Assembly: GCF_036250695.1 (NCBI RefSeq) | Contig: NZ_CP109427.1 | Location: forward strand, 8,122,001-8,186,000 | Source of the DNA: Streptomyces sp. NBC_01497 | GTDB lineage: Bacteria; Actinomycetota; Actinomycetes; Streptomycetales; Streptomycetaceae | DNA length: 64,000 nt | Reading direction: 5' to 3' | Shown here: in pieces, positions 8,986 through 56,897 of the stretch | Layout of the letters: every line of letters begins with the position of its first letter | Numbering within the stretch: the first letter of the stretch is position 1 | The notes under the pieces: model-generated | What the model was told of the DNA's origin: nothing | Seen by the model: only the letters and a program-made list of their open reading frames with translations | Database searches by the model: none | Made by a program: the position numbers and the translations under genes

Positions 8986-8999
8986 TGACAACGTTGCCA
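8986..8999. promoter_or_regulatory. LacI-type operator TGACAACGTTGCCA in front of the GH2 gene
   Basis: The core GACAACGTTGCC differs by one base from the perfect palindrome GACAACGTTGTC found twice before the GH92 gene at 25.7 kb. The central CG step and 12-bp size are typical of LacI/GalR-family operators. It lies 60 nt upstream of the preferred ATG, a position where it could cover the promoter. Confidence 0.7.
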
Positions 9000-9175
9000 T
9001 AGGCTCTATTTCCTTCCGCTTTCTGTCAAGACCCGCCGCGAAAAGGGTAGACAGTGAACTCTTTCCACATAGGGGTGGGTATCGGTCCCTCAGCCGGCGC
9101 ATACGCGCGTGCCGGAGGGCCTGACCTGAGGCGACACCCGTGGGCGGGTGGCCGGAGATCTGCGGGACGTCTCGG

Positions 9176-9219
9176 TCCCGCACCGCCGGGCGGCCGGTTC
9201 CGCACCGCCGGGCGGCCGG
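9176..9219. repeat. 22-bp tandem duplication
   Basis: Two consecutive copies of a 22-bp unit containing CACCGCCGGGCGGCCGG (9176-9197 and 9198-9219, one mismatch), followed by the first bases of a third. Confidence 0.8.
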
Positions 9220-9497
9220 TTCCGCCGCGCTGCCGGCCGCGGACCTGGAGGGCGGCCGGGTCGCCGGTCGCCTCGCGCGGCGCGTTCCGCTCTCATGCCC
9301 GGCGGCCCGGACCCGGACGTCCCCGTCCGGTCGGTGGGCGGGACGACGCTGTCCCGCCCACCGGCCGCACGGGGACGGTGTGTTCCTGTTCCCTGGCCGG
9401 CTCCGCGTGATCCCGCTCGGTGTGTTCCGCCTGGGAGCGGGGTCCGCTCTTCCCGCTTCTGGCGGGTCGGGACGTCAGCCGGGTACGCGACGGATCG

Positions 9498-9539
9498 GTG
9501 CTGTGTGCTGTGTGCTGCGTGCTGCGTGCTGCGTGCTGT
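9498..9539. repeat. Heptanucleotide repeat (GTGCTGY)x6
   Basis: Six perfect head-to-tail copies of GTGCTGT or GTGCTGC, followed by GGTTGGTGGTTGGTGGG. It lies in non-coding DNA, downstream of the membrane-protein gene ending at 9616. Slipped-strand length variation is plausible. Confidence 0.85.
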
Positions 9540-9615
9540 GGTTGGTGGTTGGTGGGTGTGGACGCGGGCGTGCGGGGCGGGAGATGTCACCCCGGTGCGC
9601 GTCGGCGATGTGCGC

Positions 9616-10815
9616 TCACGGTGTACGGGCCAGGAGCCGTACGGACCACACGTCACGGACGTACAGCACTCCCGTGCACACCAGAGTCCACAGGCCCAGC
9701 ACGATCAGGCCCGTTGCCAGGCCGTCGGAGCGGAAGTACGACACGCCCTGGATGGCCCGCACACCGGCACCCACCGGCAGGATGGCATGCAGCGGATGCA
9801 GCCAGTCGGGCAGATAGGGCGCGGGCAGGACACCACCGCAGGTCGCGTTGCCGAAGATCAGCAGCATGATCGTGGAGAGCATCACACCCGCGGGGCCGAA
9901 CAGTCGCATCAGTGCCATCGTGGCCCCGCCCGCCGCCGTGGCCATCAACGCCACCACGACCGCGACCTCCAGGAACGGTCCCGGGACGGCGCCGAAGGCG
10001 TGCCCGCCGATGAGTGACACCACCAGCCCGCCCAGTGCCCCGAACAGGCCGAGGCTCAGCATGCGCAGGCGGTATTCGAGCCGCGGCGCCAACTGGTAGG
10101 TCATGGTCCCGTACAGGAATCCGGCGAGCACCACACCGAACGCCGCGTAGAACACGGACAGACCCCGTGAGTCACCGGTGCTCGCGGGCACCACGTCGTG
10201 CGCGGTCAGTTGCTGTCCCTGGGCTGTGGCGACGGCACCGAACGCACCGGTCACGGTGGCCGTCACCCCGGAGCCGTTGGCGCCCGCGTACAGCAGTTCC
10301 GGTGCTGTCCCGGGCCCGCCCGTCGCGGAACGGCCCGCGGACGGTGCGGGGTTGGCGACGGCTGCCACCGTGGTGGTCGCGGACGTATTAGCCGACGTGC
10401 CGGCCTTCGCGCCGGACGGACCACTTCCCGCGGCGGACGAGGCGCTGCCCGCGCCCGGTGCGATGTAGGCCGCGTACACCTGCCGGTCGTGCAGGGCGGT
10501 GCGGGCCTCGCTCTCGCTCGCGTACCCGCGCACGGTGAAGCCGCCGGGCTGCCCGTGCTCCAGGCCGCGCTCCACACCGGCGAGCGTCCGCTCGTCGCCG
10601 ACCACTGCCACCGGCAGGTGGTGCGGTGCCGGTGCGTGGAAGGCGGCGAGGTAGACACTGACGAAGATCGAGCCGATGCCGAGGACGATCAGCACCGGCA
10701 GCAGCACGCCCTTCATTCCCGCGGCACCGCGGACGGTCGTCGCGGAGTCCATCGCGTGAGCGCGGTGGCGGTGTGCGGACTGCGTCTCCGGTTCCTCGCT
10801 GGTGGCGGTCGACAT
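9616..10815 (-). CDS. Six-helix membrane protein, ABC-2/YhgE-like, paired with MarR
   Basis: A 399-residue integral membrane protein. One helix near residues 37-60 (VLLPVLIVLGIGSIFVSVYLA) is followed by an extracytoplasmic region of about 150 residues containing a low-complexity Ala/Ser/Gly stretch, then five helices (about 215-395) ending close to the C-terminus. This one-plus-five layout is that of ABC-2-type permeases and the YhgE/Pip and SNG1/DUF3533 groups. No ATPase is encoded next to it. It is transcribed divergently from a MarR-family gene across a shared palindrome at 10830-10849, an arrangement common for efflux or stress transporters controlled by their own repressor. The substrate cannot be told. 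Confidence 0.7.
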   Translation of the reverse strand: MSTATSEEPETQSAHRHRAHAMDSATTVRGAAGMKGVLLPVLIVLGIGSIFVSVYLAAFHAPAPHHLPVAVVGDERTLAGVERGLEHGQPGGFTVRGYASESEARTALHDRQVYAAYIAPGAGSASSAAGSGPSGAKAGTSANTSATTTVAAVANPAPSAGRSATGGPGTAPELLYAGANGSGVTATVTGAFGAVATAQGQQLTAHDVVPASTGDSRGLSVFYAAFGVVLAGFLYGTMTYQLAPRLEYRLRMLSLGLFGALGGLVVSLIGGHAFGAVPGPFLEVAVVVALMATAAGGATMALMRLFGPAGVMLSTIMLLIFGNATCGGVLPAPYLPDWLHPLHAILPVGAGVRAIQGVSYFRSDGLATGLIVLGLWTLVCTGVLYVRDVWSVRLLARTP

Positions 10816-10829
10816 CGTGGCCTCTCCAT

Positions 10830-10849
10830 AATGTAAGGTGCCTTATATT
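10830..10849. promoter_or_regulatory. MarR operator in the divergent promoter
   Basis: AATGTAAGGTGCCTTATATT has 9-bp arms with one mismatch (AATGTAAGG / CCTTATATT) around TG. It lies 14 nt from the membrane-protein start and about 44 nt from the MarR start, so one bound dimer could shut both genes. Confidence 0.7.
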
Positions 10850-10892
10850 CTCCGGCCTAGCTTACATGCCACCGAACCCACACGGAGCAGTA

Positions 10893-11357
10893 GTGATCCA
10901 CGACCCGTCCCACCACACCGGCTACCTGACCTGGCAACTCGGTCAGGCGACGGCACAACGTCTGGAGAAGGCACTGCGGCCCATCGGGATCAGCCTCGCC
11001 CAGGTGCGCGCGGTGGTACTGGCCTCGCTGGACCCCGGGATCTCCAGCGCTGAACTCGCCCGCAGGTCCGGGCTGACCGCCCAGTCCATGGGCGCCGCCG
11101 TCCAGGGGCTCGTGGACCGGGGCGCGCTGGAGCGCTCGCCGCACCCGGAGAACCGGCGGGTGCAGCGGCTGCACGTCACGGACGAGGGCCTGGCCCTGGC
11201 CGAGCGGGCCCAGTCCGCGCTGGAGCGTGTGCAGGACGAGATGTTCGGTGTGCTGCCCGAACGCGAGCGGGCAGCCCTCCATCGCGCGCTCCACCGCGTC
11301 GTCGAACACAACATTCCCGAGGCGCTGCGGACCGTCGTCCCTCCGGAGGGTGACTGA
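10893..11357 (+). CDS. MarR-family transcriptional regulator
   Basis: A winged-helix DNA-binding protein of 154 residues, normal for MarR. The recognition region reads ISSAELARRSGLTAQSMGAA and the wing follows in PHPENRRVQRLHVTDEG; amphipathic helices at both ends would form the dimer interface. I chose GTG 10893 because GGAG lies five bases upstream; an in-frame ATG at 10866 has no ribosome site and falls close to the operator. It probably represses itself and the divergent membrane protein, released by a small ligand. Confidence 0.85.
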   Translation: MIHDPSHHTGYLTWQLGQATAQRLEKALRPIGISLAQVRAVVLASLDPGISSAELARRSGLTAQSMGAAVQGLVDRGALERSPHPENRRVQRLHVTDEGLALAERAQSALERVQDEMFGVLPERERAALHRALHRVVEHNIPEALRTVVPPEGD

Positions 11358-11503
11358 CCGCACCCACCGTGCGGTGGTGCCCGCCGGTGGCGGGGCTGTG
11401 CGGGTCGGCCCGCGGCCCGGCGCCGTCACCCCGAGGCCCGGCAACCCGCGCCGCCGGCCGCGCGGGGACGGCGGAGCGGGCGGCCGGGGTCTCGCCGCCC
11501 GGG

Positions 11504-12238
11504 TCAGCCGGCCGCGACCCATTCGTCGAAGGTGCAGGTCCCACGCGCGCTGTCACCGAGGGGCAGCAGGCCGCCCCCCGCCATGGCCTTGCCCACCGCT
11601 CCCGGCAGGCTGACCGGCAGCACGGGACGGCGGCCGCCGCGTGCCCGCTGCAGTTGCCTCACCATGGCGACCATCTCCCGTACCTCAGGTCCGGCCAGTT
11701 CGGGCGCGTGACCCGCCGGCTCGGCGAGGACGAGCCGCACGAGCGTGTCGGCCACCTCCCGTGCCGCGACCGGACGGCAGCGCATCCGGGGCACGACGGC
11801 GAGCGGGCCGCCGCGCGCCAGCATCTGGGCCGCGAACTCGTGGAACTGTGTCGTCCGCAGCACGGTGTACGGCACGCGGCTCTCCCGCACCCGTTCCTCC
11901 TGGCGGAGCTTGCCCTGGTAGTAGCCGAAGCCGACCCGGTCGATCCCCACGATGGACAGCACCACATGGTGTTCCACGCCCGCGCTCTCCAGCGCGGGCA
12001 GCAGGTGGCCGGCCGCCGCCTCGAAGAACGCGACGGACTTCGCCCTGCTCGTGGTCGTCACGTTGCTGGCGTCGATCACCCGCGATACGCCGTCCAGCGC
12101 CGCCTCCAGCCCTCGGCCGGTCGTCAGGTCCACCCCGCGGGACCGGGCGAGCACCCGAGGTTCGTGCCCGGCCGCCACTACGGCGTCGACCACGAGCCTG
12201 CCTGCCCAGCCGGTTCCACCGGCGACTGCGATACGCAT
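11504..12238 (-). CDS. NmrA-like atypical SDR / NAD(P)-binding protein
   Basis: A 244-residue single-domain Rossmann protein. The N-terminal AVAGGTGWAGRLVVDAVVAAG is the GxxGxxG dinucleotide-binding loop of atypical SDRs, and VIDASN follows at the usual strand-4 position. No YxxxK catalytic pair is visible, as in NmrA/HSCARG-type redox sensors and quinone-reductase-like members. Length is slightly below that of typical NmrA proteins. It could be a weak oxidoreductase or an NAD(P)H sensor. The gene is convergent with the MarR gene and appears monocistronic. Confidence 0.75.
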   Translation of the reverse strand: MRIAVAGGTGWAGRLVVDAVVAAGHEPRVLARSRGVDLTTGRGLEAALDGVSRVIDASNVTTTSRAKSVAFFEAAAGHLLPALESAGVEHHVVLSIVGIDRVGFGYYQGKLRQEERVRESRVPYTVLRTTQFHEFAAQMLARGGPLAVVPRMRCRPVAAREVADTLVRLVLAEPAGHAPELAGPEVREMVAMVRQLQRARGGRRPVLPVSLPGAVGKAMAGGGLLPLGDSARGTCTFDEWVAAG

Positions 12239-12399
12239 GACATGTGCCTCTCGGATACGTCGATGACGTCGGTCACGTCACTCACTGTTCCCCCCGGCAG
12301 GAGACGACGTACCGGCCCCGAATGTGACATGACACGGCCAAACGGGTTGTCGCGCGGGCCCCGGTGTCACGTTTCACCGCCCCGCGTCGTCTCCCGGGC

Positions 12400-13071: not shown

Positions 13072-14016
13072 TCAGCGCATGGCCGCCGACATGTTCGCCG
13101 CCCACTGCCAGGGTGCCGCCGTACCGCCCGGGTCGGAGTTGAAGTACTCCCAGCCGGCCACTCCGCCGAAGGTCGGGTACTTCGCCACGAGGGATTTGAC
13201 CGTGGCGGTGAGGGTGTTCATCGGTACGTAACCGCTGCCGCAGTTCGCGGCGTTGGTCAGCGTGCCGGCCACCACCTTGGACGCGGGCACGACGCCGTGG
13301 GCGATGATCCCGTCGTAGCCGCTGGTGGAGGAGAGGCTGCCCCAGCCGCAGTAGAACTGCGTGTTGAACCAGCTGATGGACGACGCGCGGTCGCGGTAGA
13401 GGCTGTCGTAGCTGAAGCCGGACAGGTTGCCGCCGCCGTTGAGGGCGGTGGCGACCGGGGCGAGCGTCACGGTGAAGCCCGAGCCGAAGTCGGTGTGCAG
13501 CTGGTCGATGAGGTGTTCGATCCCGCCGAGGGACATCGACTCCTCGACGTCGAGGTCGACGCCGTCGAGGTGGTGGGTCGTGATGACGTTCTTCAACTTC
13601 GGGTAGTACGTGGCGAAGTCGCTGTCCAGGCGCTGGAAGCTGCCCTGCGCGGCGCCGCCGACCATCCCCTCGACGTGGACGCCCTTGGCCTGCATGGCCC
13701 CGAGGTCGCTCCACATCTGGTCGAACTTCGCGTTGTCGGGCGAGTCGTCGTTCAGTGCCACACTGCCGTCGCCGTTGAGGTGGATGGCGCCGACGACGAC
13801 ATCGGTGACACCCGTGTTGTTGTCGGTCATCGCGCGCGGCGAGACGTAGGTGCCGTTGTTGAACTGCGTCTGGTAGTAGACGACCACGCGCTTGCTCGTG
13901 GCCGCCGGTGCGGCCGACTGCGCGGCGCCGGCGGGCGCCGCCGCGACGAGCGGCGCGCCGAGACCGACGGCGGCGGCCAGCGCGAACGTACGGAAGAGAC
14001 TTCTGATGCGCATCAA
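13072..14016 (-). CDS. Secreted GH18 glycosidase, endo-beta-N-acetylglucosaminidase-like
   Basis: A 314-residue protein with a Sec signal (ending near APAGAAQ) and a single TIM-barrel domain. The GH18 catalytic motif DxxDxDxE is intact as DGVDLDVEES (about residue 165), whose Glu donates the proton while the N-acetyl group of the substrate acts as nucleophile. Overall pattern (VVVYYQTQFNNGTYVSP, GVAGWEYFNSDPGG) resembles bacterial and fungal endo-N-acetylglucosaminidases more than processive chitinases, and there is no carbohydrate-binding module. It could cut the chitobiose core of N-glycans, or chitin oligomers. A LacI-like palindrome lies 58 nt upstream of the ATG. Confidence 0.8.
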   Translation of the reverse strand: MMRIRSLFRTFALAAAVGLGAPLVAAAPAGAAQSAAPAATSKRVVVYYQTQFNNGTYVSPRAMTDNNTGVTDVVVGAIHLNGDGSVALNDDSPDNAKFDQMWSDLGAMQAKGVHVEGMVGGAAQGSFQRLDSDFATYYPKLKNVITTHHLDGVDLDVEESMSLGGIEHLIDQLHTDFGSGFTVTLAPVATALNGGGNLSGFSYDSLYRDRASSISWFNTQFYCGWGSLSSTSGYDGIIAHGVVPASKVVAGTLTNAANCGSGYVPMNTLTATVKSLVAKYPTFGGVAGWEYFNSDPGGTAAPWQWAANMSAAMR

Positions 14017-14073
14017 CCGCTCCTTGGTGGAGCCGCGGTGTCGGGGACCGCGGTTGGGGGGCTCCGGGTGTAT

Positions 14074-14085
14074 GAAAGCGCTGTC
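14074..14085. promoter_or_regulatory. Possible LacI-like operator before the GH18 gene
   Basis: GAAAGCGCTGTC is a 12-bp palindrome with one mismatched pair and a central GC step. Distance to the start (58 nt) is close to that of the operator before the GH2 gene. The sequence differs from the GACAACGTTGTC class, so a different repressor would be involved. Confidence 0.4.
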
Positions 14086-14235
14086 CCCGCGTGCCCCACA
14101 AGGCCCCCTCGCCCCCCGGCCCGGTCAGGTCCGCCGCGCATCGGATGCCGAAGGCCGTCATGTCGGGTGATGTCCCCTCGCCGCGCCGCACCGGCCTTTC
14201 TTCGCGTGTCCGGCACCGGAAGACCCCGGCACGCA

Positions 14236-14265
14236 CGCGGGGGCCGGTACGCACCGGCCCCCGCG
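14236..14265 (-). terminator. Terminator hairpin after the modular GH18 gene
   Basis: A perfect 13-bp stem (CGCGGGGGCCGGT / ACCGGCCCCCGCG) with a 4-nt loop, about 50 nt beyond the stop at 14318. Confidence 0.65.
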
Positions 14266-14317
14266 AGCGGACGAACGAGTGGAGCGCGCCGCGCAGTTCA
14301 GTGCCGCGGCGCCGGGA

Positions 14318-15865
14318 TCAGCAGGCCCCGAGGTCCTGCCAGACGCCCCACTCGCCAGTGGTGCCGGGCTGCTCGCCCTGCGTCCACCACTTGGCCTTCC
14401 AGGTGTGCCCGCCGTACGACACGGAGTCGCCGCCGACGTACACCGACGAGGCGTTCCAGCCGGTCGCGGAGCACGAACCGCCGCCGGTCACGGTCAGCTT
14501 GTAGGTGGCGGAGCCGGTCGTCGAACCGGCCGCGCCGTTCACCGTGAGGGTGTACGTGCCCGGTGCGGCGGCCGACGTCGTCTTCACGGACAGGGTGGCG
14601 CTGCCGCCCGCGGTCACGGAGCCGGGGCTGACACTCGCTGTGACGCCGGCGGGCGCCCCGCTGACGCTGAGTTTCACCGACGGGGCCGTACCGCTGCCGG
14701 AGAAGGCCGTGGCGACCGACGAGGTGGTGGACCCGCCGGGCGCGAGAGAGCCCGAGGCCGGGGAGAGCGACACCGAGATGCCGTTCGCCGGCGGGGTGGT
14801 GGTGCCGCCGTTGAACGGCTCGAAGGTGTGGCTGAACTGCCAGGTGCTCTGCGTTGTGCCGGAGCACGAGTCGGAGCCGCCCTGACCGGCACAGCCGCCG
14901 TTGTCCCGCTGCAGCGCCCAGATGGACAGCGTGTTGATGCCCTTCGTCACCGCCCAGTTGTAGACGGAGGTGGCGTTGGCGGTGGTGAACGTCTCCGGCG
15001 CGCCGAAGTCGTCGATGCCCGGCATCTCGGTGACGCCGACCATGTTCCACAGCTGTGCGTCGCTCTTGGACGGGTAGAGCGCGGCGAGTTGGTCGTGCAG
15101 GCCCTGGGCGGCGGTCTGCGTGTCCGTGGCCATGTTGTGGGTGGCGTTGTCGTAGTAGTCGAACGTCATGAGGTTCACGACGTCGAGCTTCACCCCGTTC
15201 GACACGGCGTTCTTCAGGACGGAGAGCCCGCTGCCGTCGCCGGCGGTGCCGTCGGTGAGGCCGTGTGTCGTGGTGGGAAGTGTGTAGGAGAACTGGATGG
15301 GGCGGTTGTTGGCGGCCGCCCAGTCCTGGACCATCTTCACGGCCTTGTTGCGCCGGTCGATGCCCGCCGCGTTCCGCAGCGAGTTGTCCTCGATGTCGAG
15401 GTCGATGCGACTGACGTCGTAGGTCGTGATGACCTTCTCGTAAGCCGCAGCGATGGAGGCGACGTTGGTGCAGCTGTCGGCGATCTCGGTGCCGCCGTCG
15501 TCGGCCGCGTATCCACCGAAGGACGGGATGACGTCGCCGCCGCCCGCCTGGATCGTGTCGATGTCGCTGCCGAAGGTGGACTGGGCGACGGGCATGCTGC
15601 TGTCGCCGTTCCAGTACGGCGTGCAGGAGCCTACGGACGAGGTCTGCAGGAAGGCCATGGTCAGGTACTTGTTGCCGGACTGCGAGGCGAGTTGGGCCGG
15701 GCTGTCGCCGTTGTACGCCTCGAAGTACGGGGCGTACAGGTGGGAGGGCAGCGCGGTGGCGGCCTGGGCTGTGGCCGCACCTGTCACCGCCATCCCGAGG
15801 GCGGCGGCGCCGGTGGCGAGGACGGCGAGAAGAGTGCGGGCGGGTCTGCGAACGGGTCCGGGCAT
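14318..15865 (-). CDS. Modular GH18 chitinase with C-terminal chitin-binding domain
   Basis: A secreted enzyme of 515 residues. It has a signal peptide ([19 protein letters not shown], cleaved near AQA), a GH18 barrel (about 37-335), an Ala/Gly/Ser-rich beta-sandwich linker domain (about 350-450) and a Cys-flanked CBM5/12-like module containing [17 protein letters not shown] that should bind chitin. The catalytic strand reads SRIDLDIED; the DxDxE core is present but the first Asp of DxxDxDxE is Ser. Start ATG 15865 has AGGGAG nine bases upstream. A DasR-type site lies 36 nt before the start, so expression should be induced by chitin-derived GlcNAc. One of three GH18 enzymes here, and the only one with a binding module. 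Confidence 0.88.
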
Positions 15866-15901
15866 GGACCGTTCTCCCTTCGTAGGGGGACCGGAAGGGT
15901 C

Positions 15902-22921: not shown

Positions 22922-25711
22922 TCAGGAAGGCAGCCCCCACTTCTGTGCCGCGCTGCTGTTGCAGGTGTAGAGCGCCAGTTGTGTGCCCTGCGTCGTGGAC
23001 GAGGACGGGTCGTCCAGGCAGAGCCCCGACCCGGGGTTGACCAGGGACCCGTTGGAGCCGGCGGTCCACTTCTGCGCGCCCGTGCCGTTGCAGTTCCACA
23101 GCTGGACGGGCGTTCCGTTGGTCGTGCCGCTGTTCGACACGTCCAGGCACTTGCCGAGGGTGCGCAGGGTGCCGTCGGCCGCGATCGTCCAGTCCTGCGC
23201 CGCCGTGCTGTCACAGCCCCAGAGCTGGACGTGGCTGCCGTCCGTGGTCGAGGAGCCCTGGTCGTCCACGCACAGGCTCGCGGACACGCCCGCGGTGACG
23301 GGCCCGACCCGCGGCTTGGCGGGAGCGGCCAGGCTGCCGCCGTACGACGGGGGAGCCGCCGAAGTCCCCGCGGCCCACGAGGTGTTCGCTGCGGTACCGA
23401 GGGTGTACGAGAGGGTTCCACCGCCGGTGATCGCCGCGGTGGGTGCGTAGGCGTTGTTCCAGGACGCCCCGTTCCAGGAGGCGGACTGCACGTACGGGGC
23501 GTTGTCCGCCGCGCCGTTCCCGTTGATCGTCAGGGTCTTGCCCGACGGCAGGGTGACCACGGCCTGGGTGAACAGCGGGGAGCCGAGCGCCAGGTCCGAG
23601 GTGCCGGGTGTCATGGGATACATCCCGAGTGCGGACCACACGTACCAGGCGCTCATCGCGCCGAGGTCGTCGTTGCCGTCGGCCAGGCCGCCCGGTGTGT
23701 TCGTCCAGATCTGGTCCTGGACGCTGCGGACCGTCGACTGCGTCCGGTACGGCTCACCGGTGTAGTCGTACTCCCAGGGGAGTTCGATGCTGGGCTCGTT
23801 GCCGACCCAGGCGTAGCCGTTCGCGCCGGTGTAGCTGCGCAGCGTGGTGTCCAGGTAGTGGTTCATCGCCGCGTTGCCGCCCTTGGCGGTGGCCAGACCC
23901 GCGACGTCGAACGGCACCATGCCGGTGTAGATCCACGAGTCGGCCTCGACCATGTCGTTGCCGCTGGTGGGATCGAAGCCGCCGACCCAGGTGCCGTCGG
24001 CGTCGCGCGGCTGGACGAAGCCCGAGGCCGGGTTCAGGACGTTGCGCCAGTCCTGGGCGCGGTCCGCGTACGTCTTCTGGTCGGCGCTGTCGCCGAGTGC
24101 CCCGGCGTACGCCGACAGGGCGAAGTCCGCGGTGTTGTACTCCAGCGTCGTCGAGACGGGACCGTAGAAGTTGCAGCAGCCGTAGCTGCCGTCGTGCGGC
24201 ATGTATCCGGGGCTGCTCAGGTAGTTCAGGCCCGGGCGGTTGTTGTTCGTCCTGCTCGCCTCGGAGACCATGTCCGTCAGCGCGGTGGACGTGTCGAAGT
24301 TCGTCGCCCCGAACGCGTGGAAGTCGGCGAGGATCGCGGCGGCCGGGTCGCCGACCATCACGTAGCTCTCGCCGTTGTTCTCCGACCACTTGGGGAACGT
24401 GCCGGTCTGGGCGTAGTCGTCGACCATCGACTGCGCCGTGTCCGACGCGGTCTGCGGATCGACCAGTGCCTCCAGCTGCGCCTGGGAGCGGTACGTGTCC
24501 CAGCCGGAGTAGTTGGCGTACGCGGCGCGGTGGCCGGAGTCGACGGTGTGGGTCTTGCCGTCGAAGCCCGAGTACTGGCCGTTGGTGTCGCTGATGACGT
24601 TGGGGTGCAGGAGTGAGTGGTAGAGCGCGGTGTAGAAGACCGTCTGCTGGTCGGCGGTGCCGCCCGCAGTCTGGATCTTCCCGAGCTCGGCGTTCCACGC
24701 GTCACGTGCGGCGTCCCGTGTGGAGTCGAAGTTCCAGCCCGTGTTCTCCGCGGTGCGGTTGGCGACCGCGTTGGCGGTGGAGACGTAGGAGATGCCCACC
24801 TTGGCCTGCACCACCTGCTGGGAGGTGGTGTTGAAGGTGAGGTGCGCGCTCGACGCCGCCGCGTCGGGTGCGGCCGTGGACGCCGACGTCGCGGCCTTCG
24901 GCATCGAGCCGTGCAGCTGGGGCTTGTTCGGCTTCTCCGGGGCGTTCTTGGACGCACGCTTCGCGGACGGCGCGGGTGCGGCCTGTGCCTTCGTCGCGGC
25001 GCTCGTGCCCGACCCGGTGAACGGCTGGTCGAAGACCATGTCGAAGTGCACGGTGTACGTGTTGCCCGCGCCGCAGAACTTGCCGCTGGTCACCTGGCCG
25101 CTGATCTCCGTGCTGGAGACGACGGTGAACTGGGGCGCGGTGTCCCCGTTCTGGCTGCCCGCCAGCTTGAAGATCAGGTTGGCCTGGGTCGTGGCGGGGA
25201 AGGTGAAGCGCGCCATGCCACTGCGGGTGGTGGTGGTCAGCTCGGTGGTCACGTGGTTGTCGAGGGCGACCTTGTACGAGCCGGGCGACGCGGACTCGTT
25301 GCCGTGCGCGTACGAGTCCGTCGCCGTGGTGCTGACCGCCCCCACCGTCGGCAGGACGGGCACGTCGCCCGCGGCGCCGCAGCCCGGTCCCGCGATGTGC
25401 GTGAGGCTGAAGCCGGTGATCGAGGAGTCGTTGTACTCGTAACCGCCGCCGGAGGGGCGGGAGGGTGTGTCGGGGCTCCACTGCACCATGCCGAAGGGGA
25501 CGTCGGCCCCGGGGAAGTCGTCGGCCTGGTTGGAGGTGCCGATCAGCGGGTTGACCAGGGCGGCGGGGGAGGCCACCAGAGCGGGGCCGCTCGCGGCCAG
25601 GGCGGGCGTTCCGAGGCCGGCCGCGGCCAGCGCCGCGACGGTCAGTACGCCTCCGGCGGCACGGCCGAACGTCCTGCGCGGCCGTGCGGTCGCGGAGCGT
25701 CGCCCGGGCAC
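22922..25711 (-). CDS. Secreted GH92 alpha-mannosidase with C-terminal ricin-type lectin
   Basis: An exported calcium-dependent exo-mannosidase of about 929 residues. After the signal (TFGRAAGGVLTVAALAAAGL) come the N-terminal sandwich with VNPLIGTSNQADDFPGADVP, the (alpha/alpha)6 barrel, and a CBM13/ricin-B lectin with QDW, QKW, QKW repeats (last 125 residues). VGNEPS supplies the expected catalytic Glu and GNDDLGAMSAWYVWSALGMY the Asp pair. A stretch of about 50 Ala/Lys/Pro-rich residues (APSAKRASKNAPEKPNKPQ) is inserted in the sandwich domain. GTG 25711 is preferred: an ATG at 25834 has a good ribosome site, but the 41 codons between have only about 70% G/C at third positions and contain two operators. 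The pocket reads SIELPWEY rather than the usual HHxxYLYN pattern of alpha-1,2 enzymes, so linkage is uncertain. Confidence 0.85.
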   Translation of the reverse strand: MPGRRSATARPRRTFGRAAGGVLTVAALAAAGLGTPALAASGPALVASPAALVNPLIGTSNQADDFPGADVPFGMVQWSPDTPSRPSGGGYEYNDSSITGFSLTHIAGPGCGAAGDVPVLPTVGAVSTTATDSYAHGNESASPGSYKVALDNHVTTELTTTTRSGMARFTFPATTQANLIFKLAGSQNGDTAPQFTVVSSTEISGQVTSGKFCGAGNTYTVHFDMVFDQPFTGSGTSAATKAQAAPAPSAKRASKNAPEKPNKPQLHGSMPKAATSASTAAPDAAASSAHLTFNTTSQQVVQAKVGISYVSTANAVANRTAENTGWNFDSTRDAARDAWNAELGKIQTAGGTADQQTVFYTALYHSLLHPNVISDTNGQYSGFDGKTHTVDSGHRAAYANYSGWDTYRSQAQLEALVDPQTASDTAQSMVDDYAQTGTFPKWSENNGESYVMVGDPAAAILADFHAFGATNFDTSTALTDMVSEASRTNNNRPGLNYLSSPGYMPHDGSYGCCNFYGPVSTTLEYNTADFALSAYAGALGDSADQKTYADRAQDWRNVLNPASGFVQPRDADGTWVGGFDPTSGNDMVEADSWIYTGMVPFDVAGLATAKGGNAAMNHYLDTTLRSYTGANGYAWVGNEPSIELPWEYDYTGEPYRTQSTVRSVQDQIWTNTPGGLADGNDDLGAMSAWYVWSALGMYPMTPGTSDLALGSPLFTQAVVTLPSGKTLTINGNGAADNAPYVQSASWNGASWNNAYAPTAAITGGGTLSYTLGTAANTSWAAGTSAAPPSYGGSLAAPAKPRVGPVTAGVSASLCVDDQGSSTTDGSHVQLWGCDSTAAQDWTIAADGTLRTLGKCLDVSNSGTTNGTPVQLWNCNGTGAQKWTAGSNGSLVNPGSGLCLDDPSSSTTQGTQLALYTCNSSAAQKWGLPS

Positions 25712-25734: not shown

Positions 25735-25748
25735 GGACAACGTTGTCA
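25735..25748. promoter_or_regulatory. LacI-type operator, GH92 proximal copy
   Basis: GACAACGTTGTC at 25736-25747 is a perfect 12-bp palindrome. Its centre is 46 bp from the second copy. It lies about 25 nt before the GTG start, where it would block the promoter or early elongation. Confidence 0.78.
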
Positions 25749-25780: not shown

Positions 25781-25794
25781 GGACAACGTTGTCT
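25781..25794. promoter_or_regulatory. LacI-type operator, GH92 distal copy
   Basis: GACAACGTTGTC at 25782-25793 repeats the proximal operator exactly. Two identical sites in tandem suggest cooperative repression of the GH92 gene. Confidence 0.78.
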
Positions 25795-26212
25795 GCTGGG
25801 GGTGGCGCGATGCCGGTGGCGGCAGCGATCTCATGAGCAACTCCCTTACCTTCTGGGCGCGTTGGGGCGCCGCTACGCATGGAGAGTGCTCGCCGAATGT
25901 AGCCAGTCTGCATGTGCGCGTCAACGAGTCGGACGGTGAACGGGACGACCGGCCCGCGCTGACGCCGCCGACCTGGCCGCCGCCTCGCTGTCCTGTGGCA
26001 CGCTGTCCTCCGCCCTCGCTGTCGCCGGCCGGTTGCGTCGCGCCGATGCCCCGGCGCACGGGAGGACCGGGCGTTCGGCGCGAGAGCCGTGCCCGGCCCT
26101 GCGGCTCCGGCCGCGCCCTGCGCGGTGCCGGCCTCCGAGGGGAACGGGGCCCTTCGGGCCAGCAGGCCCGGGCGGGCGGGCACGCGGACATCTGCGGGCG
26201 GGCGAAGAGGTC

Positions 26213-26268: not shown

Positions 26269-29200
26269 TCAGCTCGCGAAGTGCCAGGTCCCCGAGCCGA
26301 CGGTGTAGAGCGTCTCCTGACCGTCCTTCCGCAGTGTCCTCGCGCCTGCGGTGGCGGCGCTCGGGGCGCTCCCGCTCGTCCGGGGTACGTGGACGGTGGC
26401 CGTCACCCCCACCGGGACGGACACGGTCAGGGCGAAGCGGCTGCCGGTCCTGGTCCACGACGTGGCGACGGTGCCGTGCACGGTGTCGACGGAGGCGGAC
26501 GCGTGCCGCAGGCCGTCCGGCACCTGCGGGTCGATCATGACGGTGCGGTAGCCGGGAGCGCTGGGACTGATGCCGCCCAGCAGGCTGGAGAAGGAGGCGT
26601 TGATCCCGGCGAACATGGCGTGGTCGTGCGTTTCCATGCTGGAGCGGTAGGTCCACTCCTCCCAGGAGCTCGTCGCGCCCTGCGCGATCTCGAAGCCGAA
26701 GCCGGGATAGCTCTTCGCGTCGAGGACCGTCATCGCGATGTCGGTCCTGCCGATCGCCGACAGGGCGTCCATCAGATACCGGGTCCCGAAGATCCCGGTG
26801 TCGAGGTGGCCCGCGTCCTTGTGCAGGACGGTGTCGGCGAACTGTGCGCCCACGGCGTGCAGGTCCTCGGCGGGCACCATGCCGAAGGCCAGCGGGAGCA
26901 CACTCGTCACCTGGCGGCCGTCCCCGTACGTGTCACCCGCCGCGTTGAGGAAGTGTGCGTTGAAGGCCGCTTTGATGCTGTCGGCCAGTTGCCGGTAGCG
27001 AGCTGCGTCGTCGGGGTGGCCGAGTGCCCCGGCCGCCTTGGCCACGTCCGTGGCCTGGAGATAGGAAAGGGCGGTGTTGACCACGGACACCTCGCTCGTG
27101 CAACTGCCCGCGCTCGCGTCGCCCATCCCGCCGTTCGCGTGGGGGCCGAGGTCGGGCGGGCACCAGTCACCGAAACCGCGGTTCTCGGGCCAGATGTGGC
27201 CGGGTACGTCGGAGGCGTTGGTGTCGACGAACGCCTTCATGGCCCGATAGGCGGCTTCGAGGGTGGCCCGGTCGCCGTACTGCTCGTAGAGGGTCCAGGC
27301 CAGGCTGATCTGGTCGCCGCCCATGTCGGGCTGCTGGGCGTTGGACGCGTCGTTGGGCAGCGCCGTGCCCGGCGGCATGTCCTTCAGGTAGCTCGCGTAG
27401 AAGCGGTCCATGCCGAACTCGGTGGTGGACGCGTCGTGGTAGGCCTGCACGTCCATGCCAGGCGGTGTGCGCTCGTCGCGGACCGGGTTGTCGGTGGGAA
27501 GGCTCATCGAGTTGTTCAGGATGCTCCACCGGTTGTTCTGCCAGATGCGGTTCAGCAGCGGGTCTGACGAGTCGAAGGTGGCGGTCGAGGCGACGTCGGC
27601 GTGCACCACGCGTGCGTCGAGGCTGCTCGCGCTCGGGGTGCCCGGGTATCCGGTGACCTCGACGTAGCGGAAACCGTGGTAAGTGAAGCGAGGTTCGTAG
27701 GTCTCGGATCCGCGGGCGCCCGCAAGGGTGTAGCTGTCGGTGGAGGCGGCGGCCCTGTTCGTGACGGTGTCGAGCATCCCGTCCTCACCGACCTCCTCGG
27801 CCGTGCGCATCCGGACGGTGGTTCCCGCCGGGCCGTGGACCCGCAGGCGGGGCCAGCCGGCGACGTTCTGGCCGAAGTCGTACACGTAGACGCCGGGCCG
27901 GGGTTCGTCGAGCGTGACGGGACGGAGCGTTCCGGTGACCCTCACCGGCGGCGCGGTGTCCGCCGTGAGGCGTCCGGCCGGGGCGGGCACGGTCCGTACC
28001 CCCTGCCAGGAGATGTCGGTGAAGCCGGGCGCGTCCCAGCCGGGCTGATCCTGCTGGGCGTCGTAACTCTCGCCCGCGTACAGGTCGTTGCTGGTGATCG
28101 CGCCGGACGACCACTTCCACGTCGGGTCCGTGGTGATGTTCTGGCGCGTCCCGTCGGTGTAGGTGACCGTGAGCAGCATGAGAGCCTGCTTCGGCCCCGT
28201 CCACCGAAAGCCGTACGGGCTGAACTGATCGCCGTAGCCGTTGCCGAGCCACATCCCGACCGCGTTGGCGCCCTTGTGCAGCTGGTCCGTGACGTCGTAG
28301 GTGGAGTACAGGTCACGCTGGTCGTACGGGGTGCTCCCGGGCGCCAGCACATGGTCGCCCACCTTGTGCCCGTTCAGGTGCATCTCGTAGAAGCCCAGGC
28401 CGTACACGTAGGCCCGGGCGCGCGCGACCTTCTTGGGCAGGCTGAACGACTTGCGCAGCATGGGCGCGTCGGGATCCGGGTCGAGCAGGACGGGGTCGCC
28501 CTTCGGTTCGAGCTGTCCGTCCGTGACGGTGGAGCCGGGGAAGCGGGGGTCCGCCGCGGTGGAGAAGTCATCAGCGAACAGCCGCGTGCCGTCGGGTCCG
28601 GTCACCGCGAGGTTGTCGTAGAGGGCGTCCTCGGCCACGTTCGCGCTGGTGGAGGTGCGGAAGCCGAGCGTGCCCCGCGTCAGGGTGGCGTCGGTGCGGG
28701 TGTCGACCCGCGTCCCGTCGATCCAGGTCGTGATCGTGGCGCCGTCCGCCGTGATCTTCATGTGGTGCCGGGCCGACGCGTTCGCGTCGGTGATCACGGG
28801 AGTGAGATCGACCTCGCCGAGCGTGCTGAAGTGTCCGTCGCTCTGCAGCTGCGGACGCAGCATCACCTTGCCCGGCGTGGTCACCGTGTTGACCTGCCAC
28901 ATGTAGTAGTTCCGTGCGTCCTTCGCACGGAACAGGACGCTCGCCGCGCCGGCCTTGATGGTGAAGTCGGTGTCGAGTGTGAAGTCCGACCAGGTCATGG
29001 AGGAACCGGTGTCGGGGCTGATCCACTGGGCGCCGCCCCAGTCCGCGGTGTTCAGCAGGCCCATCTCCCACCAGGCCGTTTCGCTCCACGCCGAGGTCCG
29101 GCCCCGCGCGTCCCAGACCTGCACCTTCCAGTAGTAGCGGTGCCCGGACGCAGGCTGGGGGCCGCCGTACGCGATTCCGGTCGATTGCGCTGTGGCGACT

Positions 29201-29517
29201 TTGCCGCTGTCCCAGACGTCCGCGTCGCCCCGGTCCAGTCGCGCCTTGCTGCTCGCCACGAGGAGCCGGTAGGCGCTCTGCCGCTGGTTGTTGACGGGGG
29301 AGCGCAGCGTCCAGCCGAGCGCGGGGTGCACGTCGTCGATCCCGAGCGGATCCGTGGCGGAGTCCGTCGTGAGCCGCGCCACCGAGAGAGGCGCGGAGGC
29401 GGCCTCTGCCTCGGGGAGGGAGGAGAAGGGAAGTCCGCCGCACGCCAGGGCGATGACGATCGCCACGACCCCGATCCAGTAAGTCGACCTCGTCCTGCGG
29501 TGATCGAACAACATCAC
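26269..29517 (-). CDS. Secreted GH78 alpha-L-rhamnosidase with inserted lectin-like domain
   Basis: An exported enzyme of 1082 residues. A signal peptide (WIGVVAIVIALACGG) precedes the Bac_rhamnosid N-terminal domain (LSVARLTTDSATDPLGIDD, about 40-155). Residues about 170-330 are an inserted beta-sandwich with SVLFRAKDARNYYMWQVN and TTWIDGTRVDTRTDATL, comparable to the rhamnose-binding CBM67-type insert of the S. avermitilis enzyme. The (alpha/alpha)6 barrel follows, with the likely general acid Glu in NPVRDERTPPGMD (near 680). It removes terminal alpha-L-rhamnose from plant glycosides or polysaccharides by inversion. The GTG at 29517 and an ATG one codon later are both possible starts. A palindrome at 29578-29594 is a likely sugar-responsive operator. 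Confidence 0.88.
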   Translation of the reverse strand: MMLFDHRRTRSTYWIGVVAIVIALACGGLPFSSLPEAEAASAPLSVARLTTDSATDPLGIDDVHPALGWTLRSPVNNQRQSAYRLLVASSKARLDRGDADVWDSGKVATAQSTGIAYGGPQPASGHRYYWKVQVWDARGRTSAWSETAWWEMGLLNTADWGGAQWISPDTGSSMTWSDFTLDTDFTIKAGAASVLFRAKDARNYYMWQVNTVTTPGKVMLRPQLQSDGHFSTLGEVDLTPVITDANASARHHMKITADGATITTWIDGTRVDTRTDATLTRGTLGFRTSTSANVAEDALYDNLAVTGPDGTRLFADDFSTAADPRFPGSTVTDGQLEPKGDPVLLDPDPDAPMLRKSFSLPKKVARARAYVYGLGFYEMHLNGHKVGDHVLAPGSTPYDQRDLYSTYDVTDQLHKGANAVGMWLGNGYGDQFSPYGFRWTGPKQALMLLTVTYTDGTRQNITTDPTWKWSSGAITSNDLYAGESYDAQQDQPGWDAPGFTDISWQGVRTVPAPAGRLTADTAPPVRVTGTLRPVTLDEPRPGVYVYDFGQNVAGWPRLRVHGPAGTTVRMRTAEEVGEDGMLDTVTNRAAASTDSYTLAGARGSETYEPRFTYHGFRYVEVTGYPGTPSASSLDARVVHADVASTATFDSSDPLLNRIWQNNRWSILNNSMSLPTDNPVRDERTPPGMDVQAYHDASTTEFGMDRFYASYLKDMPPGTALPNDASNAQQPDMGGDQISLAWTLYEQYGDRATLEAAYRAMKAFVDTNASDVPGHIWPENRGFGDWCPPDLGPHANGGMGDASAGSCTSEVSVVNTALSYLQATDVAKAAGALGHPDDAARYRQLADSIKAAFNAHFLNAAGDTYGDGRQVTSVLPLAFGMVPAEDLHAVGAQFADTVLHKDAGHLDTGIFGTRYLMDALSAIGRTDIAMTVLDAKSYPGFGFEIAQGATSSWEEWTYRSSMETHDHAMFAGINASFSSLLGGISPSAPGYRTVMIDPQVPDGLRHASASVDTVHGTVATSWTRTGSRFALTVSVPVGVTATVHVPRTSGSAPSAATAGARTLRKDGQETLYTVGSGTWHFAS

Positions 29518-53641: not shown

Positions 53642-53661
53642 AAGCGGAGGCGCCGCCACTT
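53642..53661. promoter_or_regulatory. TetR operator 1
   Basis: AAGCGGAGGCGCCGCCACTT is a near-palindrome of the same sequence as operator 2. It sits 64 nt from the SDR start. The centre is 31 bp (three helix turns) from operator 2, so two dimers would bind the same face. Confidence 0.7.
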
Positions 53662-53670
53662 CGTCCCACA

Positions 53671-53694
53671 CTAAGTGGCGGCACCTCCACTTAG
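53671..53694. promoter_or_regulatory. TetR operator 2
   Basis: Core AAGTGGCGGCACCTCCACTT (53673-53692) with the symmetric extension CT...AG on both sides. It lies about 27 nt upstream of the TetR ATG, where binding would give autorepression. Confidence 0.75.
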
Positions 53695-53720
53695 CAAATG
53701 GACCCAGGGGAGAACCGCCG

Positions 53721-54311
53721 ATGGCCCGAGACGCAGGACGCCCGCTGAGGGCTGACGCACAGCGGAACCGGGACAAGATCCTGGCCGCGGCGGTGCGCGT
53801 GTTCACCGAGGAGGGGCTCGACGCGCACTTCGAGCGCATCGCCAGGGAAGCGGGCGTGGGAACCGGCACCCTGTATCGCAACTTCCCGACCCGGGAGGCG
53901 CTGATCGAGGCGGCGTACCGCAACGAAGTGGCCCGGCTGTGCGACGCCGTCCCCGGTCTTCTCGCGGCGATGCCGCCGTCCGAGGCCCTGCGGGCGTGGA
54001 CCCGCCGCTTCATCGACTACGCCACCGCCAAGTTCGGCATGGCCGACGCCCTGCGAGCCGTCGTCAGTTCGGGAACGAACCCCTACGCCGACAGTCACGA
54101 GATGATTCAGGCCGCCCTCTCCTCCCTCATGGAAGCCAATACCGCAGCCGGGACCATCCGGTCCGACATCAGCCCGACCGACATGTTCGCCGCCCTCGCC
54201 GGTATCGCCCTCACCTCCGCAAGGCCCGAACAGCGGGAGCGGGCCGAACGCCTCCTCGACCTCACCCTGGACGGGCTGAAGCCCGCGTCGCAGCGGCTCC
54301 CCGGAAACTGA
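53721..54311 (+). CDS. TetR/AcrR-family repressor
   Basis: A 196-residue regulator. The HTH is RIAREAGVGTGTLYRNFPTR (about 33-52), with the ligand-binding helical domain behind it. AGGGGAG precedes ATG 53721. Two matching 20-bp operators in the divergent promoter strongly suggest it controls itself and the SDR gene. The C-terminal domain resembles the SCO1712-like/TetR_C group; ligand unknown. Confidence 0.86.
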   Translation: MARDAGRPLRADAQRNRDKILAAAVRVFTEEGLDAHFERIAREAGVGTGTLYRNFPTREALIEAAYRNEVARLCDAVPGLLAAMPPSEALRAWTRRFIDYATAKFGMADALRAVVSSGTNPYADSHEMIQAALSSLMEANTAAGTIRSDISPTDMFAALAGIALTSARPEQRERAERLLDLTLDGLKPASQRLPGN

Positions 54312-54868
54312 CGGCGGACGCCCGGACATCATCGAAGCGCCGTTCAGGGCGTGTTCGGCGTCTCTTCGAGCCGACGCCCGTCGCGGAGCCGCTCCGGTGC
54401 CGGGTCCTGTCCGTGCACCGCCAGCGGCGTTCCAGGAGCTGCGGGCGTGGCCGGTCCGCGTGACAGCCTGACTGCTGACCGGCAGTCAGAGGGCGCTTGC
54501 CGGCTGCCGCTGGGACCGGCGACCAGCCTTCGGCGATGTCGCCCGCACCACGACCGGTTCGGGGCCCGAGGCCGCGTCACGGGGCCGGAACGTGTCCGTT
54601 CTCCCCGGGCGGCCTGGACTCGCCCGCCCGCCAACTGGCCCGCGAATCAACCGACATATCCCCTCCTGAGGGCGACGTGATCATCGCCGGGATCAGGCGG
54701 GGGCCTTCGTCGCACGGCGGTTCAGCCGAAACGGCGCCCAACGTTCGCCCTGATGTCGGTCCCTCGTGTCCATCCGGTCGCTCTCCGCGATTGTCATCAG
54801 TCATGCTCGCAGAGCCCGGCGGGATCCGTCCCCGGTGTGCTCGTCTCCCTACGTCCCTGTGAGGAATC
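54312..54868. other. Intergenic stretch with one perfect inverted repeat
   Basis: No gene seen. CTGACTGC-TGACCG-GCAGTCAG (54468-54489) is a perfect 8-bp inverted repeat that could be a regulator site or the terminator of the TetR gene. The last 100 bp before 54869 should hold the promoter of the glycosidase gene. Confidence 0.45.
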
Positions 54869-56560
54869 ATGCAGCATGCACGCTCGGCAGCCGCAATGGA
54901 CGCTGCCGCGTCCCGTCGTTCCGTGCGCCCGCGCACCGCGCTGACCACGGGCGCGGTCCTGCTCGCGGCCACGTCGCTGTGTGCCCTCAGCAGCGCGCAG
55001 GCGTCGACCCCCTCCACCGCCCGGCCCTTGGCGACCCACACCCCGCCCGCCGTCCGGCCCGTCGTCACGCGCACGGCGTCCACCGCCCACTGGACGACCC
55101 AGCAGGTGGCCCGGGGCCTGGAGGTGCGCACCGGCACGGTGACCGATTCCAAGGCGGCACCCGCGTGGACCATCACCGTGCAGGCGGCCACGACGGGACG
55201 GCTCTCCGGCGCCGCCGCGTGGGCCGAGGTAGGTCCGGGCGCCTGGGCCGACAGCACGGCGGGGAAACTGCGCGCTGACGGCTTCACGCCGCGCGTCGAC
55301 CGGGTCGACTGGCCGACCTACACCGACACTCCCCGCGGCCTGATGGGCGTGCGGGTCCGCGTCGGTTCGTACGGTACGCAGGCGGAGGCGACCACCGCGG
55401 CCAAGGCCGTCACGGCCGCCGGGTTCCACACCGCGGTCGAGTGGACGGGCTACGACGCCGACCAGGCGGCCGACGTGGAGAACCTGCACGTAGCGGTCAT
55501 CGATCCCCGCACCTTCGCGGGCACCGTCTCCGGCACGCACGACGGGAACGTCGCGCGGCGCGAGACCACGTCGTCCGTCGCCGCGAAACTGCACTCCCTG
55601 GTCGGGGTCAACGCGGGCTTCTTCGTGACCTCGGACAGCGACGGCGTGCAGGGCATCCAGTCGGGCCTCGGCGCGTACGACGGCCGCCTGGAGTCGATGT
55701 CCGCCGGCTCCCGCGCCGCGCTCGTCCTCGACGACGGCGGTCACCATGCCCGCGTGGCCGACCTGACCAGCACCGCCGTCGCCCAGGTGGGCGGGGCGCG
55801 GTACGCGGTCCAGGGCATCAACCGGGTGCCCGGTACCGTCCGCGACTGCGGCCGTCCGGGCGGCACGCCGAGCACGCGACCCTGGCAGGACGTCACCTGC
55901 CACGAGACGGACGACCTGGTGCTGTTCACGCCGGAGTTCGGGGCCGCCCTGCCGAAGGGGGCGGGCAGCCAAGCCGTGCTGGACAGCTCCGGCCGGGTCG
56001 TGTCGGCGGGCGCTCGCGGTGGCTCGGTGCCGGCCGGCGGCTCGGTGCTGCAGGGCATCGGGGGCGCCGCGGACTGGCTGAGCGCGCACGCGACGCCCGG
56101 GCGCCGCGTGGCCGTCGACGAGAGCGTGAAGGACGCGAGCGGGCACCGGGTCGTCCTCGGCAAGGGCGACAGCATCGTGAGCGCCGCCCCGACCCTGGTC
56201 AGGAACGGGCGGGTCAGTATCGACGCCGCGACCGAGGGCACGGTGGACCCGCAGGACCTCTCCTTCGGCTACGCGTGGGCCAACACCCGCCAGCCGCGGA
56301 CCATGGCCGGCATCGACGCGCGCGGCCGGCTGATTCTGGCCACCGTCGACGGCCGGCGGGCAGGCGGCAGTGAGGGCTTCACCCTGCAGGAGGCGGCCGC
56401 GTTCATGCGCTCGCTCGGCGCGGTACAGGCCCTCAACCTCGACGGTGGTGGTTCCACCGCCATGGCGGTGGATGGCGCGCTCGTCAACCACACGTCGGAC
56501 GCGACCGGCGAGCGCGCCGTCGGTGACACGGTCCAGGTGCTGCCCCGCACCGCCCACTGA
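54869..56560 (+). CDS. Secreted phosphodiester glycosidase (NAGPA/DUF2233) with SPOR-like domain
   Basis: An exported protein of 563 residues. After the signal (ALTTGAVLLAATSLCALSS) an SPOR-like segment (about 130-190; MGVRVRVGSYGTQAEATTAA) may bind peptidoglycan, followed by the NAGPA domain (about 200-560). NAGPA domains remove sugar-1-phosphate caps, such as GlcNAc-1-P from mannose-6-P in lysosomal targeting, or act on bacterial phosphoglycans. The conserved end LNLDGGGSTAMAVDGA is intact. GAGGAATC precedes the ATG. Lies directly before the operator-bearing glycosidase gene, suggesting joint action on phosphorylated mannans. Confidence 0.84.
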   Translation: MQHARSAAAMDAAASRRSVRPRTALTTGAVLLAATSLCALSSAQASTPSTARPLATHTPPAVRPVVTRTASTAHWTTQQVARGLEVRTGTVTDSKAAPAWTITVQAATTGRLSGAAAWAEVGPGAWADSTAGKLRADGFTPRVDRVDWPTYTDTPRGLMGVRVRVGSYGTQAEATTAAKAVTAAGFHTAVEWTGYDADQAADVENLHVAVIDPRTFAGTVSGTHDGNVARRETTSSVAAKLHSLVGVNAGFFVTSDSDGVQGIQSGLGAYDGRLESMSAGSRAALVLDDGGHHARVADLTSTAVAQVGGARYAVQGINRVPGTVRDCGRPGGTPSTRPWQDVTCHETDDLVLFTPEFGAALPKGAGSQAVLDSSGRVVSAGARGGSVPAGGSVLQGIGGAADWLSAHATPGRRVAVDESVKDASGHRVVLGKGDSIVSAAPTLVRNGRVSIDAATEGTVDPQDLSFGYAWANTRQPRTMAGIDARGRLILATVDGRRAGGSEGFTLQEAAAFMRSLGAVQALNLDGGGSTAMAVDGALVNHTSDATGERAVGDTVQVLPRTAH

Positions 56561-56714
56561 ACCGCACGGCCCGCCGGACCCGGCGGCGCCCACTGAAACC
56601 GCCCGGCCCGCCGGACCCGGCAGCGCCCACTGAAACCGCCCGGCCCGCACCGCCCGCACCGCCCGCTGAAACCGCCCGGCCCGGTCAGCCCGCACCGCCC
56701 GCTGAACCGCACCC
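56555..56714 (+). repeat. 36-bp tandem repeat starting at the stop codon
   Basis: Four units of 36 or 37 bp (56555-56590, 56591-56627, 56628-56663, 56664-56699) plus a partial fifth. Each starts CACTGA or CGCTGA followed by AACCGC or AAACCGCCCGG. The first unit contains the stop codon of the phosphodiester glycosidase, so the gene end itself has been duplicated into the 3' region. Confidence 0.85.
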
Positions 56715-56885
56715 CAAGAACCGGTATCGCGTGAACCCGCACCCCATGGCGCTGTCGTCCCGCACCCGCGCGGGGCGACGGTGCCCGCGCAGGACCGGGC
56801 CGCCCCGGGCGCTGCCACCCGCCGGGCCGGCCGTAGGCCCTCTTGACAGTCCAGCACGCTCTGCCTAGGTTCCGAGCGCTCGTAA

Positions 56886-56897
56886 GACATCGTTGTC
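56886..56897. promoter_or_regulatory. LacI-type operator before the (alpha/alpha)6 glycosidase gene
   Basis: GACATCGTTGTC differs by one base from GACAACGTTGTC of the GH2 and GH92 genes. It lies 18 nt before ATG 56916, in a range that would block initiation or overlap the promoter. Confidence 0.65.

Follow-up and report, generated by a model that had tools for sequence, protein, structure and literature searches.

Sites and genes in the window

The stretch analysed here (the window) comprises 64,000 bases of Streptomyces sp. NBC_01497, whose genome measures 9.08 Mb, and spans positions 8,122,001–8,186,000 of its larger contig. The window contains several copies of a 12-bp palindrome, GACAACGTTGTC, ahead of glycosidase genes, which we regard as the probable operator of a LacI-type repressor encoded outside the window. 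A motif scan recovered all four sites described in a first-pass annotation of this DNA, two exact and two with one mismatch: one before a GH2 gene, two before a GH92 gene and one before a gene for an (α/α)6-type glycosidase. The GH2 site had been placed at 8986–8999 and is one base narrower on each side (8987–8998). The site had also been said to occur nowhere else, and this does not hold strictly, as one-mismatch matches are found at 1786–1797 and 59839–59850; both fall in coding sequence by our gene calls, are probably due to chance and were rejected as operators. When two mismatches are allowed, 12 matches are found in the window where 2.21 would be expected, a number attained in none of 100 shuffles.

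The GH2 gene (4811–8857, minus strand) encodes a secreted GH2 family glycosidase that resembles exo-β-glucosaminidase and β-mannosidase and contains inserted F5/8 type C (CBM32-like) domains; an ATG at 8926 or 8980 is a possible earlier in-frame start. Its predicted operator has one mismatch, reads GGCAACGTTGTC in the orientation of the gene and starts 31 bp past the start of a conserved TTGACA (9024–9029, minus strand), a putative −35 element. A site with at most one mismatch is found upstream of all 15 orthologues of this gene, 14 of which have GGCAACGTTGTC. TTGAC(A/G) is located 31–32 bp ahead of the site in 15 of the 16 GH2 promoters (43 bp in the remaining one), so that the operator should overlap the transcription start. 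The site was not seen at four partial or paralogous GH2 matches, three of which had little or no upstream sequence, and the matches L336 and L338 were left out of the conservation count.

The GH92 gene (22922–25711, minus strand) encodes a GH92 α-mannosidase family protein (PF07971, E = 1.3e-146; NF035929) with a C-terminal ricin-type lectin domain (PF00652). It is preceded by two predicted operators, both exact, at 25782–25793 (operator 1) and 25736–25747 (operator 2), 46 bp apart. A putative promoter, TTGACG-N17-TACATT, is found at 25896–25924 on the minus strand, and the operators would fall in the presumed 5′ leader. Close homologues of this gene carry two exact sites (L122 and L186) or one (L180), with a similar TTGACR-N17-TA..TT promoter sequence in L180 and L122; a fourth relative, the short match L175, has no site. 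An ATG at 25833, which would make both operators intragenic, was rejected as the start because close relatives appear to start 3′ of the operators.

The third gene (56916–58526, plus strand) encodes a secreted (α/α)6-type glycosidase, MGH1-like (PF22422, E = 1.3e-14), for which a PDB search gave no relative at E 0.001. A probable operator with one mismatch (56886–56897) is found 18 bp ahead of its start codon and 15–26 bp downstream of the presumed −10 of a putative promoter, TTGACA-N17-TAGGTT (56843–56871, plus strand).

Sites placed over or after presumed transcription starts are what one would expect of a repressor interfering with initiation or elongation. The LacI-type protein could instead be an activator or a dual regulator, since the operators of the window GH92 gene follow the presumed promoter at a distance of over 100 bp, which leaves steric repression unproven, and the varying spacing of double operators (22, 46 and 68 bp) is no proof of it either. 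The variable spacing also gives no indication of fixed looping. The inspected promoters place the sites where activation is unusual, and we consider an activating role quite improbable, simple repression being the preferred reading.

Distribution of the palindrome in the genome

In the whole genome, the exact palindrome occurs 14 times and its reversed control once; with up to one mismatch the numbers are 61 and 10, and sites of the GRCAACGTTGYC form number 21 against one. Summed over 101 Streptomyces genomes (the home genome and 100 relatives), there are 334 exact sites and 17 occurrences of the reversed control. Of the 61 sites with at most one mismatch, 58 were located in stretches fetched around them (14 exact, 44 one-mismatch). 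Genes in these stretches were called with our own codon-usage script, so the start positions are approximate. By these calls, all but one of the 14 exact sites fall between genes: twelve precede the nearest called start by 16–121 bp, and the thirteenth (1667775) does so by 334 bp. The one-mismatch class is different in composition: 35 of the 44 located sites fall within genes, which leaves nine between genes. Among these nine, the sites at 494161, 1607275, 7548925 and, in the window, 8987 and 56886 are less than 200 bp from a glycosidase start, whereas those at 1706802, 5768611 and 265935 (second contig) are not near a called start. The site at 1129777, 39 bp ahead of a small ATPase-domain gene, was excluded as a probable chance match. 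Since the one-mismatch class is mostly in coding sequence, only part of it is regulatory.

This intragenic majority would be expected if the matches were chance or coding noise in a high-GC genome, as would the one-mismatch sites still present in ten genomes without exact ones (see below). The exact counts contradict it, both at home, where the first-pass annotation had taken random frequency as the outcome that would speak against an operator, and over the 101 genomes. A site also precedes every GH92 gene found at home and most of the GH92 genes inspected in relatives, far above permuted controls (see below). Chance is an extremely improbable explanation, and the palindrome is best read as an operator.

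The target set, as obtained by computation from site positions and gene families, consists of about 17 intergenic regions spread across the chromosome and is dominated by GH92. According to Pfam, GH92 genes are found behind the sites at 224862, 494161, 1008123, 1362439, 1607275, 1715409, 7548925, 7695852 and 7736482, and at 25.7 kb of the window; PF17678 and PF07971 are above cut-off in the site-bearing proteins. A whole-genome GH92 search yielded 11 Pfam matches corresponding to ten genes, one of them split over two frames, and all ten have an upstream site (seven exact, three one-mismatch). The split gene (L040:5093–7463) extends over two overlapping frames, which reflects a frameshift, a pseudogene or a sequencing error. 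Pairwise identity among the ten proteins is 22–50% (the frame-split gene being compared by its N-terminal piece only), so recent duplication fails to explain the shared site. The flanks are also unconserved past about two bases on each side, and duplication was rejected as its origin. Characterised GH92 members are all α-mannosidases, as the family is described in PMC9522356, and we infer from sequence that the site-bearing proteins are α-mannosidases as well, their specificities being likewise predicted.

The remaining targets are two GH2 genes (1667775 and window 9.0 kb), a GH3 gene (518132), a gene for a trypsin-like secreted protein (1313619; 26.8 bits, slightly under the cut-off of 27.6), a gene for a secreted protein in which F5/8 type C domains are the only ones recognised (845690), a divergent LacI/ROK pair (7395487) and, as a probable member, the MGH1-like glycosidase gene (window 56.9 kb). 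A second GH2 gene, downstream of the GH92 gene at 494 kb and on the same strand, may be co-transcribed with it. The dispersed glycan regulon proposed in the first-pass annotation is supported, with exact sites clustering before glycosidases far beyond the three window genes. Of the gene classes before which it asked whether the sites cluster in a genome-wide scan (glycosidase, LacI and ATP-binding cassette (ABC) sugar transporter genes), the first two are represented; no ABC transporter gene was seen directly behind a site in the home genome.

The probable LacI regulator and the ROK kinase

The genome contains 34 LacI-domain matches, of which only that at 7395231–7395368 has one of the 14 exact copies of the palindrome next to it. 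This copy stands between a LacI gene and a divergent ROK kinase gene, 64 bp before the called LacI start and 91 bp from the ROK start, in agreement with the earlier suggestion of a LacI-family regulator encoded outside the window. The LacI protein is composed of an N-terminal LacI helix-turn-helix and a C-terminal periplasmic-binding-like sensor domain (PF00356, 54.6 bits, cut-off 27; PF13377, 100.5 bits, cut-off 26.5). It scored under the cut-offs of all 18 NCBIfam models that it hit, was thus placed in no named group (RbsR, PurR, CytR, GalR, CcpA and others) and is a LacI protein of unassigned specificity. The ROK protein matches PF00480 with 202.3 bits (cut-off 22.9), and the 12 NCBIfam models that it hit were all below cut-off, which assigns it no substrate (glucose, N-acetylmannosamine, N-acetylglucosamine and others). 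The S. coelicolor genes SCO1077 and SCO1078 were considered as a candidate orthologous ROK/LacI pair and not adopted; in one paper, SCO1077 is labelled a probable glucokinase where it is mentioned.

A LacI match of at least 75% identity is found in 96 of the 101 genomes, with none listed for G037, G050, G079, G081 and G089. The exact site is present upstream of LacI in all 29 best-scoring orthologues (after the home one) and in all of the 80 best of 503 relatives, all 80 from Streptomyces; both sets were taken from the top of the ranking, so they do not sample the orthologues at random, and they may share members. In the same 80 upstream regions, 59 permuted palindromes have no exact occurrence. 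A class-wide search gave 25 further LacI loci, 21 with the exact site, one with a one-mismatch site and three with neither; 22 of them are from Streptomyces (20 exact, two without a site), G013 and G088 being also counted elsewhere. Outside the genus, three of 15 LacI matches were examined (61–65% identity), which have an exact site (L292), a site with one mismatch (L293) and a site with two (L291).

Conservation and natural comparisons

The other Streptomyces genomes contain 193 GH92 matches, from which upstream regions of 57 genes in 45 genomes were hand-picked; forty genomes contributed one each, and G024, G052, G059, G070 and G079 three or four. A site with at most one mismatch is found between −500 and +100 of the chosen start in 42 of the 57 (32 exact), against an average of 0.017 and a maximum of one in 57 for 59 permuted palindromes. 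In two of the 42, the site falls after the chosen start. A wider range, −720 to +100, gives 44 of 57. In G079, which is 78% complete and has no close LacI orthologue, one of the three GH92 genes examined is preceded by a site. A T is found directly 5′ of the core in 73% of 49 GH92 sites from other genomes; the near-invariance of the core in these sites is partly built in, because they were chosen at no more than one mismatch.

Over the 100 relatives, the number of exact sites follows the number of GH92 genes (Spearman 0.70). At least one exact site occurs in each of the 78 GH92-bearing relatives, while the 22 without GH92 include 11 that lack it altogether. The LacI region was compared in 19 of these 22 (a twentieth, G088, has GH92, and G062 is also in the set of 29): eight have an exact site, one has a one-mismatch site and ten have none. 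The divergent ROK gene is present in all nine relatives with the site and in none of the ten without it, within a stretch of about 8 kb. In ten genomes, GH92, exact sites and the neighbouring ROK gene are jointly absent, a natural case in which the kinase gene, the targets and the sites are missing together while the regulator sometimes remains. The counts are not independent events, because the relatives share ancestry.

Other contexts of the exact site were inspected in 20 stretches from nine relatives, and twelve proteins were scanned. The trypsin-like protein is also site-bearing elsewhere (70% identical), as are the protein with CBM32 (F5/8 type C) domains in two cases (64% identical) and a second ROK kinase in other genomes (L309, 65%; L306). 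Exact sites elsewhere are also found before GH2 and GH92 genes.

Several observations weigh against a LacI-controlled mannosidase regulon. The exact site at 4487909 falls within a gene (weak GH39 match), and 13 of the 57 GH92 upstream regions have no site of up to one mismatch even between −720 and +100. No such site is found upstream of LacI at L286 and L287, in Streptomyces, or at L291, outside the genus. Conservation in related Streptomyces, on which the first-pass annotation had made its operator depend, is seen for the GH2, GH92 and LacI upstream regions and fails for the MGH1-like gene: none of three orthologues has a site (up to two mismatches, within 700 bp upstream), which makes this gene the weakest member of the regulon, probable at best. 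In other genomes, GH43, GH26, GH127 and ThuA-domain genes too are preceded by exact sites, so that either the regulon extends beyond mannosides or chance accounts for some of the sites. Several more exact sites, located inside genes or close to genes that show no obvious connection to sugars, may be chance. In G081, an exact site precedes a GH92 gene although no close LacI orthologue is present, and G089, without LacI, keeps the site before ROK. A resolvase-domain gene is found in G089 beside the retained ROK operator, where LacI is missing (L173:5656–6772). Finally, LacI is kept at 79–83% identity, with its DNA-binding domain nearly unchanged, in the ten genomes from which ROK, GH92 and exact sites are gone (L151, L155–L157, L159, L160, L162, L163, L165 and L166), which suggests that it survived the loss of its targets or now has others. 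Each of these ten genomes holds 13–18 one-mismatch sites (reversed controls 1–7). The number exceeds the control, but the listed variants resemble the matches found in coding sequence at home, and a reduced regulon of one-mismatch sites was provisionally rejected.

Two of these observations, the G081 GH92 gene and the persistence of LacI in genomes without the site, would also be expected if the palindrome were the operator of another regulator (a ROK-type repressor or a different LacI protein) that had the adjacent LacI gene as just one of its targets. The 34 LacI-domain matches offer other candidates, one of which, a paralogue 46% identical to the LacI protein, adjoins a GH38/ABC-transporter cluster. 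This alternative is unlikely: no other LacI match is found beside an exact site, the site precedes every LacI gene of the two best-scoring sets and recurs, exactly or with one or two mismatches, in the three matches examined outside the genus. The 46% paralogue (525898) has no site of up to two mismatches before it and was rejected as a user of the same operator. The adjacent LacI protein is retained as the probable regulator. The paralogue's own surroundings (L024:8825–16876) include a GH38 α-mannosidase gene and, from a look at the sequence, putative ABC-transporter genes, and inverted CGGTAACGT-like repeats before this cluster suggest a different operator.

Proposed mechanism

The LacI protein encoded at about 7.395 Mb is very probably the repressor of a scattered mannosidase regulon, acting through GACAACGTTGTC and released by a mannose-containing sugar. 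A LacI dimer would bind the 12-bp palindrome at or just 3′ of the promoters of ten GH92 genes, two GH2 genes, the GH3 gene, the genes for the trypsin-like and CBM32 proteins, the LacI/ROK pair and, probably, the MGH1-like glycosidase gene. With no substrate, these genes would be held down. In the presence of mannose-rich material, such as fungal mannan or high-mannose N-glycan, a released sugar would enter the cell and bind the sensor domain of LacI, freeing the operators, and the ROK kinase would phosphorylate it. The target genes point to mannose or a small mannoside as the probable inducer, and the binding, the repression and the substrate of the kinase are predicted along with it. One switch would then probably control the scattered enzymes with which the organism feeds on mannose-rich glycans of fungi or plants. 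On this reading, the GH92 α-mannosidases of a major soil genus gain a probable repressor, a probable operator and a probable kinase, and the 12-bp tag finds members by sequence alone, for example the secreted protease and the CBM32 protein.

Relation to known systems

CebR (cellobiose) and MalR (maltose) are LacI-type repressors of glycosidase and sugar-uptake genes in Streptomyces, and their operator and targets differ from those of the present regulon. With the LacI-family sugar regulons, as outlined in PMC4052901, the system shares the LacI and periplasmic-binding-like domains, an even palindrome with a central CG, a site before the regulator gene and carbohydrate-gene targets. Five LacI groups for mannose and mannosides are distinguished there, ManR being an example. 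Unlike the regulons described in that paper, the present one has about 17 scattered intergenic regions dominated by GH92, and it is unusual in being so widely scattered and so strongly centred on a single enzyme family. Among the top-ranked results in the open-licence literature searched, where the motif itself retrieved two papers with titles on E. coli and Streptococcus, we found no report of the motif or the regulon, of which a prior computational listing is possible, and no named regulator of Streptomyces GH92 α-mannosidases.

Independent expression data fit the model in part. As reported for S. lavendulae grown with yeast (PMC13170338), secreted GH92 genes are up 16.1-fold on average at 12 h, and intracellular GH38 genes rise later, at 24 h. 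The secreted GH92 genes respond jointly in that study, as the present regulon predicts, and its main text has no occurrence of LacI; the regulon offers a testable cause for joint GH92 induction when Streptomyces meets yeast. Two results of the same report count against the model: the co-culture secretome has low mannosidase activity on mannan, and a purified mannosidase is inactive on it (PMC13170338). ShAM1 of Streptomyces hygroscopicus is likewise a secreted GH92 α-mannosidase (PMC10269736). That paper concerns plant immunity, and LacI, operator and promoter have no occurrence in its main text.

The CBM32 protein and other genes of the window

The CBM32 protein (L025:4496–7663; genome 845,690) is secreted and has about 1,055 residues. 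It has 728 database matches and, among the best 120, the named ones are mostly from Streptomyces and Actinacidiphila. Sequence and profile searches against Pfam, NCBIfam and PDB gave no credible match outside the F5/8 type C domains, and no catalytic domain from these databases matched its first approximately 600 residues, so a catalytic identity was not assigned. The protein is possibly the founder of a new enzyme family. On a wider and tentative view, which we hold to be possible and rather less likely than the repressor assignment itself, the regulon might be a switch for feeding on eukaryotic cell surfaces, in which the protease, GH92, GH2 and CBM32 proteins, the last as a potential new glycoside hydrolase family, act together and whose repressor has been repurposed in some Streptomyces. 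If this were true, a single sugar signal would release a secreted protease, GH92 and GH2 enzymes and an unrecognised enzyme family at the same time.

The window also contains other carbohydrate and lipid genes, to which no operator was assigned. They are found at 1231–3726, 13072–15865, 26269–29466, 54869–56560 and 58987–61176 and encode a GH95 protein, two GH18-like proteins, an α-L-rhamnosidase-like protein, a NAGPA phosphodiester glycosidase and a phospholipase C.

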